DNA of 46,379 bases from Clostridia bacterium (lineage in GTDB: Bacteria; Bacillota; Peptococcia; DRI-13; SV3-B141). This document shows positions 22,935 to 33,908 of the stretch, piece after piece; position 1 is the stretch's first letter; every line of letters starts with the position of its first letter. A model generated the notes under the pieces. It did not search any database, was not told the DNA's origin, and saw only the letters and a list, made by a program, of their open reading frames with translations. Made by a program: the position numbers and the translations under genes. The stretch lies in contig JAHDSB010000027.1 in assembly GCA_018433015.1 (NCBI GenBank), positions 1 to 46,379 on the forward strand, in the 5' to 3' direction.

Positions 22935-22963
22935 TTGACATATATATTTAGATATGGTAAATT
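22935..22963 (+). promoter_or_regulatory. Promoter of the riboswitch / P-type ATPase transcript
   Basis: TTGACA (22935-22940) lies 17 bases before TAAATT (22958-22963), which is preceded by TGG (extended -10). Transcription would start at about 22970, exactly where the riboswitch begins. Confidence 0.7.
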
Positions 22964-22970
22964 AAAAATA

Positions 22971-23057
22971 CAAAAGGGGAGTAGCAATAATCAGAGTGGT
23001 GACAACACGGCCTAAAGCCCGCTTCTCTGACGGAATGACTACCGTGCGAGACCTTTG
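22971..23057 (+). promoter_or_regulatory. yybP-ykoY family (Mn2+) riboswitch aptamer
   Basis: The RNA begins CAAAAGGGGAGUAGC, the diagnostic 5' element of the yybP-ykoY class, and closes with GCGAGACCUUUG (23046-23057). CAAA-GG (22971-22977) and CCTTTG (23052-23057) form the basal helix P1. Between them lie the two internal arms with short conserved segments including GACGGAAUG. This class senses Mn2+ and commonly precedes Mn2+ exporters, including P-type ATPases such as Lactococcus YoaB. The downstream gene here is such an ATPase. The covariance match was made by eye only. Confidence 0.8.
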
Positions 23058-23089
23058 TATGAAATTGGATTTTCATGCAAAGGTTTTTT
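23051..23089 (+). terminator. Riboswitch-controlled terminator
   Basis: ACCTTTGTATGAAA pairs with TTTTCATGCAAAGGT, followed by six T residues. The 5' part of this stem (CCTTTG, 23052-23057) is also the 3' strand of aptamer P1, so the two structures exclude each other. Metal-bound aptamer should block the terminator and switch the ATPase gene on. Confidence 0.85.
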
Positions 23090-23293
23090 GTTTCTGTAAA
23101 TTGTGCGAAAATTAATGTTTAAAAATATACATAATGTTAAGAAATGAAAAAAATCTGAAATTATTAAAAGTTAGAGCTATACGTAATAAAATATATATAT
23201 TTATTTTATAATAAATATATTTTAAATATATGTTAGATGTTTAACAAAACACTAATTAATACATCTTAATAAATAAGGAGGTCGATGGAATAG

Positions 23294-25999
23294 ATGGACA
23301 GCAAAACATGGTATCAACTAAACGCTGAAGAAACCAGCAAAGAGCTTAAAACAAGTCTCGAAAATGGCTTAAACAAAGAACAAGCTGAGGAAAGATTCCA
23401 GAAATATGGCCCTAATGAATTAATTCGTAAAGAAGGCCCCTCGTTTATAGAAATGTTTATTAGCCAATTTAAAGATTTTCTTATTTTAATATTAATAGCT
23501 GCCAGTATTTTATCAATTATAGTAGGGGAAGTTACGGATTCTATAGTTATTATTGCTATTGTAATAATTAATTCCGCCTTAGGTGTATTTCAGGAATATA
23601 GAGCCAGTAAAGCTATGGAAGCTTTAAAGAAAATGACTGCACCCCATGCTAAAGTAATACGGAATGGCGAGCAACTTACCGTATCTGCAGCAGAACTTGT
23701 ACCGGGAGATCTTGTACTTTTAGAAACAGGAGATTATATCCCCGCAGACGTTCGTATAATAGAATCGGTTAACTTAAAAGTCGAAGAAGCTGCTTTAACT
23801 GGGGAATCAGTACCTGTTGATAAGCATGCTGATGTAACGTTGGAAGGCGATGTAGGTATAGGCGACCAAACAAACTGTGGATTTATGAGTACCATTGTTA
23901 CATATGGCCGCGGTAAGGGATTAGTAACTGCCACGGGCATGAATACGGTAATCGGTAAAATTGCGGAAATGCTTCAGTCGGTAGAAGAAGAAGAAACACC
24001 TCTACAAAGAAAATTGGCTGAATTTGGTAAATATTTAGGTGTTGTTTGTTTAGTTGTATGTGCTATAGTTTTTGGTCTTGGAATTATAAGGGGAGAACCC
24101 ATTATTAGTATGTTTATGACTGCTGTAAGTTTAGCAGTTGCCGCAATACCGGAAGGCCTACCGGCAGTAGTAACTATCGTTCTAGCTTTAGGAATGCAAC
24201 GTATGGTAAAACAAAATGCTATCGTGAAAAAACTACATGCCGTTGAATCTTTAGGAAGTACAACAGTTATTTGTTCAGATAAGACAGGCACCCTTACCCA
24301 AAACCAGATGACTGCAGTGAAGCTTTATTCGGCAGGCAAAGTATATGATGTATCTGGGGAAGGGTATTGCCCAGAGGGTGGATGTAGTGTTAATGGAGAT
24401 AAGGTTAACGTAGAGAATGACCAGGTTTTATCCCAGCTTTTAAGGATAGCTGCCCTATGCAATGACAGCAAATTGGAATATGATAAAGAAGAAAATGTAT
24501 GGAATATGCTGGGTGATCCTACTGAGGGAGCTCTAGTAGTAGCTGCAGCAAAAGTTGGTTTTACTAAAGAAAAGGTTAATACTGAATACCCCAGATTGCA
24601 GGAAATACCTTTTGATTCAAAACGTAAGCTAATGACTACTTTCCATAAATCTCCTGAAAACGCATACTTTGCCTTTACAAAAGGTGCTCCTGATATTTTA
24701 GTAGGATTATGTAACAGAATACAACGAGCAAATGGTGATATTGAGCCTATCACGGAAGCTGATGTTAAAGAAATTATGGATAATAATGCAGCTTTAGCTG
24801 GCCAGGCCTTACGTGTATTAGCTTTGGGTTATAAACCTGTTGACGAAATACCGGAACAACCTACACCGGAAGAAACAGAAAAAGAATTGATCTTTAGTGG
24901 GCTTGTGGGTATGATTGACAGACCACGTCCTGAAGCTATAGATGCTATTAAAGTATGTAAAAAAGCCGGCATTAGAGTTGTTATGATTACTGGCGACTAT
25001 AAGGATACTGCTGCTGCTGTAGCAGAAGAATTAGGGATAATAGAAACAAAAGAAGCTGTTATAACGGGAACTGAATTGAACCAGATGTCAGATGAAGAAT
25101 TAGTTGAAGTCGCTAAAACCACTAATGTTTTTGCGAGGGTATCTCCTGAACATAAAGTAAAAATAGTAGATGCCATCAAGAAAGACGGTGGAGTCGTTTC
25201 TATGACAGGGGATGGTGTTAATGATGCGCCTGCTTTGAAACGTGCTGACATTGGTGTGGCAATGGGTATAACAGGTACTGACGTAGCAAAAGAAACAGCT
25301 GAAATGGTTCTGACAGATGATAACTTTGCCAGTATCGTATCTGCAGTTGAAGAAGGCAGGGTAATTTATAGTAACATTAGAAAGTTTGTGTACTTCTTAC
25401 TTTCTTGTAACGTGGCAGAAATTCTTATCATTTTCTTAGCCATGCTCTTTGGTTGGCCCATTCCGTTATTGCCGATTCAATTACTGTGGTTAAATTTAGT
25501 TACTGATGCCTTCCCGGCCTTAGCTTTAGGCATGGAAAAAAGAGAACCCAATATCATGGATTTGCCCCCGCGCGATCCTAATGAACCTATCATAGATAGA
25601 ATTATGAAACAGATGATCACTATTCAAAGTGTAGTAGATACTATTGCAGTATTAGGTTCCTTCTATTTTGCTTATACCACATATAATGATGTGGATATGG
25701 CGAGAACATATGCTTTTGTTACCCTCATTATGGCGGAACTCTTAAGGGCATATACGGCTCGTTCGGAAAAATATACTCTTTGGGAAATTGGAATATTCTC
25801 CAACCGCTATATGAATATGGCTACCCTCTTTTCCTTCTCGCTGCTCTTACTGGTAATGTTAGTACCAAGTTTGCAAGAAATCTTTAAAACTTCTACCTTG
25901 CATTTTAAAGATTGGGATTTAATCATTATCTTTGCATCCTTGCCTTTGATATTTGGTGAATTGAACAAGGTAGTTAGAAGAAAATTGCATAAATGGTAA
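23294..25999 (+). CDS. Cation-transporting P-type ATPase (Ca2+/Mn2+ efflux type)
   Basis: This 901-residue P-type ATPase of the IIA/SERCA-like type has an N-terminal cation-ATPase domain, the actuator motif TGES (169-172), M4 with PEGLP (286-290), the phosphorylation motif DKTGTLT (D329), a nucleotide-binding domain with FTKGAPD, the hinge MTGDGVNDAPALK and M6 with LWLNLVTDAFPALALGM. Asn and Asp in M6 and Glu in M4 are the usual Ca2+ ligands. The enzyme would export Ca2+ or Mn2+ across the membrane using ATP. The upstream yybP-ykoY riboswitch favours Mn2+ detoxification as at least one role. Ribosome site AAGGAGG precedes the ATG. Confidence 0.9.
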   Translation: MDSKTWYQLNAEETSKELKTSLENGLNKEQAEERFQKYGPNELIRKEGPSFIEMFISQFKDFLILILIAASILSIIVGEVTDSIVIIAIVIINSALGVFQEYRASKAMEALKKMTAPHAKVIRNGEQLTVSAAELVPGDLVLLETGDYIPADVRIIESVNLKVEEAALTGESVPVDKHADVTLEGDVGIGDQTNCGFMSTIVTYGRGKGLVTATGMNTVIGKIAEMLQSVEEEETPLQRKLAEFGKYLGVVCLVVCAIVFGLGIIRGEPIISMFMTAVSLAVAAIPEGLPAVVTIVLALGMQRMVKQNAIVKKLHAVESLGSTTVICSDKTGTLTQNQMTAVKLYSAGKVYDVSGEGYCPEGGCSVNGDKVNVENDQVLSQLLRIAALCNDSKLEYDKEENVWNMLGDPTEGALVVAAAKVGFTKEKVNTEYPRLQEIPFDSKRKLMTTFHKSPENAYFAFTKGAPDILVGLCNRIQRANGDIEPITEADVKEIMDNNAALAGQALRVLALGYKPVDEIPEQPTPEETEKELIFSGLVGMIDRPRPEAIDAIKVCKKAGIRVVMITGDYKDTAAAVAEELGIIETKEAVITGTELNQMSDEELVEVAKTTNVFARVSPEHKVKIVDAIKKDGGVVSMTGDGVNDAPALKRADIGVAMGITGTDVAKETAEMVLTDDNFASIVSAVEEGRVIYSNIRKFVYFLLSCNVAEILIIFLAMLFGWPIPLLPIQLLWLNLVTDAFPALALGMEKREPNIMDLPPRDPNEPIIDRIMKQMITIQSVVDTIAVLGSFYFAYTTYNDVDMARTYAFVTLIMAELLRAYTARSEKYTLWEIGIFSNRYMNMATLFSFSLLLLVMLVPSLQEIFKTSTLHFKDWDLIIIFASLPLIFGELNKVVRRKLHKW

Positions 26000-32978: not shown

Positions 32979-33908
32979 TTGAAGAAAATAATGCTTCTGC
33001 TGTGTTGTTTGATGGTTTGCACCTCTTGTTATAGACAGGATCTGCCCCTAAAGAAAAATGAAGCTACAACACAAGAAGTTCGGATAAATCACTATATCAG
33101 AGAATTAACAAGCACAGAGATGGCAGGGCGTAGAGGGGGAACCAGCGGCGAAGCATTAGCTAGTATGTACTTGGCCGGGTTTATGCAAAAAGCAGGTTTA
33201 GAAACTGCGGGAGAAAAAGATACATATTTTCAAACTTTCCCTATAAAATCTTATGAAACGGTATTAGTGAAAAAACGTATGACTTTTCGTAATGTTTCCG
33301 GCAAAGTCGCAGGCTGGAGCGAAAATATTTTAGGTTTGTTACCGGGGCGTAAGAAAGAAGTAATTGTTGTAAGTGCCCACTATGATCATTTGGGAGTAGT
33401 TGACAATAAAATTTACCCGGGTGCTAATGATAATGCCTCGGGAGTAGCTGTAGTACTAGAATTAATAAATCAACTCAAAGACGAGACCCCGCCCTACAGT
33501 ATTCTTTTTGCCTTTTGGGGTTCTGAAGAAATGGGGCTGTTAGGATCTCGCTATTTCTGTAATAATCCTACAATTGAACTTGTAAACATTAAATGTGTGT
33601 TAAACTTGGATAGTGTCGGAAATCTTAGAAATGATAAAAATCTATTAGGATGGGGTTTGTGTAAGGAAGAACCCTGTAGAAATATTATGGAAAAACTGGC
33701 TGAGGACGGGTGGCAGATTGAATGGGAGAATAATACATCCCATTCAAGCGATCATAATTCTTTTATTCAAGAAGGTATTAGCGGTGTTACTTTATTATCG
33801 CCGGAGTGGCTAGTACAAAATCATACTGTCCATGATACTATTAAGAATATAAAATACGCTCCGTTAGAAGAATTGGTTATAGCCATAAGAAAAGCTCTTC
33901 TAACATAA
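32979..33908 (+). CDS. M28 family zinc aminopeptidase, probable lipoprotein
   Basis: This 309-residue protein starts with a short signal peptide whose lipobox-like end (CTSC, C17) suggests a membrane-anchored extracellular enzyme. The peptidase M28 motifs follow: SAHYDHLG (first His and Asp), GANDNASG (bridging Asp), WGSEEMGLLG (catalytic Glu pair), NLDSVG (Asp) and SHSSDHNSF, with HTVHDT supplying the last His. It should remove amino acids from extracellular peptides. It starts at a TTG (32979) after AAGGGG, only 28 nt behind the helicase loader gene. Of the start and the motifs, the motifs are the firmer evidence. Confidence 0.88.
   Translation: MKKIMLLLCCLMVCTSCYRQDLPLKKNEATTQEVRINHYIRELTSTEMAGRRGGTSGEALASMYLAGFMQKAGLETAGEKDTYFQTFPIKSYETVLVKKRMTFRNVSGKVAGWSENILGLLPGRKKEVIVVSAHYDHLGVVDNKIYPGANDNASGVAVVLELINQLKDETPPYSILFAFWGSEEMGLLGSRYFCNNPTIELVNIKCVLNLDSVGNLRNDKNLLGWGLCKEEPCRNIMEKLAEDGWQIEWENNTSHSSDHNSFIQEGISGVTLLSPEWLVQNHTVHDTIKNIKYAPLEELVIAIRKALLT

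Follow-up and report, generated by a model that had tools for sequence, protein, structure and literature searches.

The leader of L. lactis yoaB controls a cation ATPase, and the yybP-ykoY leader of S. pneumoniae mgtA was reportedly described by Martin et al. in 2019. The leader analysed here shares with a second leader of the same genome (L001, on contig C7) a three-way junction, an overlapping terminator and a downstream P2A ATPase, but the C7 leader has a canonical L3 neighbourhood (UCG-UCAUUCC) and is scored by the Rfam model RF00080 at 35.1 bits. In the L. lactis yoaB leader the 3' strand of P1 (P1.1) also serves as the 5' arm of a terminator, as it does here, and the whole acts as a transcriptional ON switch (PMC11087558, PMC9190785); the aptamers differ in that the L. 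lactis one forms a four-way junction that includes P2 and carries the L3 sequence UCAAUUC, whereas a three-way junction and the L3 sequence ACAACAC were found here. This P1/terminator mechanism was experimentally established in L. lactis (PMC11087558) and supported in X. oryzae (PMC6754395). The S. pneumoniae mgtA leader is similar in carrying a three-way-junction aptamer before a P2A-type ATPase switched by Mn2+, and its aptamer is described as canonical, whereas the receptor C-G pair is U.G here; for that leader Mn2+ is reported to activate transcription better though Ca2+ binds tighter (PMC9495176). Overall, a Mn2+ riboswitch before a cation pump is an arrangement already known in other bacteria, and the present leader is a largely ordinary member with one unusual pair.

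Layout of the leader

The window analysed was the whole 46,379-nt stretch of contig JAHDSB010000027.1 from Clostridia bacterium (assembly GCA_018433015.1). The leader and its gene were arranged as follows.

22935..22963, + strand: sigma-70 type promoter, TTGACA-17-TAAATT with an extended -10 TG (consensus match 10/12)
22968..23060, + strand: yybP-ykoY (Mn2+) riboswitch aptamer of the three-way-junction type without P2 (match of covariance model R1; orthologous leaders)
23048..23089, + strand: intrinsic terminator, 17 bp followed by a T run, its 5' arm overlapping the P1 3' strand
23294..25999, + strand: P2A cation-transporting P-type ATPase of 901 aa, SERCA/PMR1 type (Pfam domains, NCBIfam, site residues)

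Judged from the promoter, transcription is predicted to start at about 22970, within the first bases of the aptamer, which agrees with an earlier reading of the sequence alone (hereafter the sequence-only reading) that placed the aptamer at the predicted start. The predicted transcript opens with ACAAAAGGGGAGUAGC, and GCGAGACCUUUGUAU is located 60 nt further on. This terminator, also delimited as 23048-23087, was the sole terminator-like site of the region (shuffles averaged 0.1). The segment CCUUUGUAU (23052-23060) is common to the P1 3' strand of the aptamer and the 5' arm of the terminator, and it includes the CCTTTG that the sequence-only reading had assigned to both helices. Folding of the leader to 23060, which leaves out the 3' arm of the terminator, gave a closed P1 at -23.4 kcal/mol, while folding of the entire leader gave a formed terminator and an open P1 at -40.1 kcal/mol. 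The sequence-only reading thus described the parts and their coordinates correctly.

Between the terminator and the start codon lies a very AT-rich untranslated leader of about 200 nt (23090-23293), longer than in the other leaders examined. A weak promoter-like site (23164-23192) is located 3' of the terminator and may bypass the switch.

Aptamer structure and the variant P3 pair

The elements of the aptamer were assigned as follows.

22976..22985, + strand: L1 5' strand GGGGAGUAGC, matching the family consensus at every base (alignment of 123 aptamers)
22991..23030, + strand: P3 arm, UCAGAGUGGUG / CGCUUCUCUGA with one U.U mismatch, inner hairpin GGC-CUAAA-GCC
23002..23008, + strand: L3 ACAACAC, fitting [AU]CANNNN, its CA invariant in 123/123 aligned aptamers
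23046..23053, + strand: L1 3' strand GCGAGACC, identical to the consensus

The L1 signature (GGGGAGUAGC...GAGACC) and the P1 closing helix, by which members of the family are recognised, are both present. The remaining helices are a short P1.2 (GCA/UGC) and a small P4 (CGG...CCG), P2 is absent as in the C7 leader, and P1 carries one bulged A. On alignment, A23004 corresponds to the invariant Mn2+-contacting adenosine (A41 in L. lactis, A48 in X. oryzae), the L3 residue that holds the metal in the X. oryzae structure (PMC6754395).

The pair two steps below L3 in P3 is U23000.G23021, which keeps wobble pairing, while C-G is found at this position in 122 of the 123 aligned aptamers, a count that rests on matches from consensus-favouring models and may miss very divergent members. 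The C-G receptor pair seen in all the other members is therefore absent from this leader, but it is not a published membership criterion. The next pair down P3 is G-C, where 110 aptamers have U.G, 11 have C-G and one other has G-C. The structure from X. oryzae has A10, the conserved adenosine of L1, in A-minor contact with the pair G66=C44 (PMC6754395), and mapping through the L3 sequence quoted in that paper suggests that this pair corresponds to U23000.G23021. The metal site is thus retained, and the docking receptor differs by a single transition.

A similarity search of the leader DNA against 60 related genomes gave no match beyond itself, and the exact variant L3 pattern was matched among 398 genomes by the window alone. 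When the same pattern was sought in genome contigs, its one match, in a Gemmatimonadetes MAG, had no aptamer context and was regarded as chance. The analysis covered one genome of the genus, and the U.G pair could possibly reflect a sequencing error at one base.

Family assignment

The sequence-only reading had named an RF00080 covariance search as a check on the aptamer and the lack of a hit as a ground for rejecting it. At this site RF00080 gave no match at the gathering score (45 bits) and none at E<=10. Of 299 genomes sampled from the phylum, just 7 had a match above the cut-off of this model, and within the same genome both the C7 leader and the C47 leader (30.0 bits) fell below 45 bits. 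As so few genomes pass and the plain aptamers of the same genome fall below the cut-off, the missing match is uninformative. RF00080 in its current form is far too insensitive for this phylum, where most members escape it, and annotation pipelines built on it consequently report this type of regulation too rarely.

RF00080 in the release used is a 177-position model, whereas R1 is a 100-position lineage model. R1 was built as a covariance model from 30 aligned aptamers of other loci with the window left out, and its structure comprised P1, P3 and the inner P3 hairpin. It matched 22970-23058 with 41.1 bits and an E value of 2.8e-8 over the 46-kb window; the runner-up, a weak match at 33433 (15.2 bits), was rejected as noise. 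Held-out leaders of orthologous pumps scored 49.2, 47.7 and 45.2 bits, with 23.4 bits for one with long insertions, and R1 matches were found in 229 of 398 genomes. Covariation was strong, and over 101 aligned aptamers 97.7% of cells were paired compared to 73.8% after shuffling and <=53% with the partner slid, although these figures lean in favour of the structure since the alignment was fitted to it. The yybP-ykoY identity and the mutually exclusive terminator given by the sequence-only reading are upheld by the R1 score and the orthologous leaders despite the absent RF00080 match.

Conservation beside orthologous pumps

Six orthologues of the pump were found in the order, with 66-71% identity. 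The aptamer with its overlapping terminator lies just upstream of four of them (L051, L052, L054 and L055). No leader aptamer was found for the closest orthologue (G004, 71%), and none was present in the ~340 nt of upstream sequence available for G006. A tree was made with 34 P2A ATPases from the class. In it, aptamer leaders precede five of the seven pumps of the window clade, three pumps of the five-member clade that includes this genome's second pump, and a third pair. No aptamer leaders were found upstream of a 17-member clade of other P2A pumps in the tree. The switch is thus stably associated with certain lineages of the pump.

The pump and its substrate

The pump carries the P-type ATPase Pfam domains, the DKTGT motif and the site residues of TM4, 5, 6 and 8, which are the features of P2A membership. 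Both NCBIfam models scored just below their cut-offs (776.8 bits against 798.3 for the PMR1 type and 698.3 against 703.4 for the SERCA type). The pump has the full set of ten residues that form sites I and II in SERCA (V282, A283, I285, E287, N706, E709, N734, T737, D738 and E815). Glu815, at the position of SERCA E908, is Glu in all seven window-clade pumps (including those of L050-L055), and almost all of the remaining P2A pumps of the class that include the region have Gln. This makes Glu at the E908 position a change of a cation-site residue specific to the clade.

Site residues failed to tell a Mn2+ from a Ca2+ pump, as all ten SERCA residues were there. The sequence-only reading had argued from the riboswitch that the pump exports Mn2+ rather than Ca2+. 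This does not follow, since the ten SERCA residues are present, nearly the same residues occur in a sister pump without the riboswitch, and the S. pneumoniae relative involves both Ca2+ and Mn2+ (PMC9495176). Pumps for both Mn2+ and Ca2+ are known under this riboswitch, as with S. pneumoniae mgtA. Mn2+ export by this pump is plausible, and Ca2+ may possibly be exported as well.

Proposed regulation and alternative explanations

The locus is very probably a divergent yybP-ykoY Mn2+ riboswitch that controls the P2A ATPase by antitermination. It has the homology and the architecture of the family, its P1 overlaps the terminator, and the arrangement is conserved beside orthologous pumps. The R1 score is near the 45-49 bits of held-out orthologous leaders, and the L1 consensus and the L3 CA are kept; counting against are the missing RF00080 match, the U.G receptor pair, the P3 U.U mismatch, the bulged A in P1 and G004 without a leader. 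We infer the ligand (Mn2+), the direction of the switch (ON) and what the pump transports. With metal absent, the terminator would capture the P1 3' strand and transcription would end about 120 nt past the start. With enough Mn2+, L1 would dock on L3 with the metal held between them and P1 would be stabilised; the stabilised P1 would block the terminator so that the pump gene is read, and the pump would then reduce the cytosolic metal (Mn2+ and possibly Ca2+ too). The metal-dependent ON switch of the sequence-only reading agrees with the known logic of a P1/terminator layout (PMC11087558, PMC6754395), and the direction here is presumably the same.

Several other explanations were considered. 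The U.G receptor could mark a natural variant in which docking strength, threshold or metal preference has changed, and this pump and the C7 pump would then answer to different metals or metal levels, but this is unlikely. The leader could also be a decaying or desensitised copy in which loss of the C-G receptor weakens docking, with the result that the terminator dominates or only very high metal works. The receptor pair is U.G in just this one of the 123 aptamers, P3 and P1 carry the mismatch and the bulge, and A10 contacts exactly the altered pair in X. oryzae (PMC6754395). However, decay would be expected to cost the terminator or L1 as well, whereas nothing is missing from the promoter, L1, L3, the 3' L1 strand or the terminator, and pairing is preserved through the remaining changes of the triplet (U.G to G-C, C-G to U.G), which makes such decay unlikely.

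An aptamer variant whose metal preference has moved (e.g. from Mn2+ to Ca2+) to suit a Ca2+ pump would fit the Glu of the clade at the E908 position, which gives a complete two-site Ca2+ constellation, and the S. pneumoniae mgtA aptamer binds Ca2+ at higher affinity than Mn2+ (PMC9495176). This is quite improbable, as L1 and the L3 CA match the Mn2+ consensus and canonical aptamers precede orthologues of the clade that share this Glu. Finally, a fortuitous resemblance, in which two short motifs of an unrelated attenuator look like the aptamer, would fit the missing RF00080 match and is in practice refuted by the 41.1 bits from a model that never saw the site, compared to 15.2 bits for the runner-up, and by leaders in the same placement before orthologous genes.

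The divergent leader described here adds a clear case of a Mn2+ riboswitch that is shared by orthologues and precedes a pump for which Ca2+ ATPase is the usual annotation. As a natural variant in one pair of the tertiary docking site, it would test the weight of the A-minor receptor.

Other leaders in the same genome

Three yybP-ykoY aptamers were found in the genome. In addition to the present one, L001 (G000:C7:3239-3328) lies before the second P2A ATPase (906 aa, 48% identical), and L002 (G000:C47:1924-2016) lies before an MntP-like protein of 196 aa, which we take to be MntP from reading its sequence. MntP is a known family of Mn2+ exporters. The third P2A pump of the genome (C135:108533) has no aptamer before it. 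An FMN riboswitch (114.5 bits) was also found near the mntP-like gene of L002, at 2568-2696 on the minus strand, and the gene after it encodes a membrane protein resembling a riboflavin transporter component.
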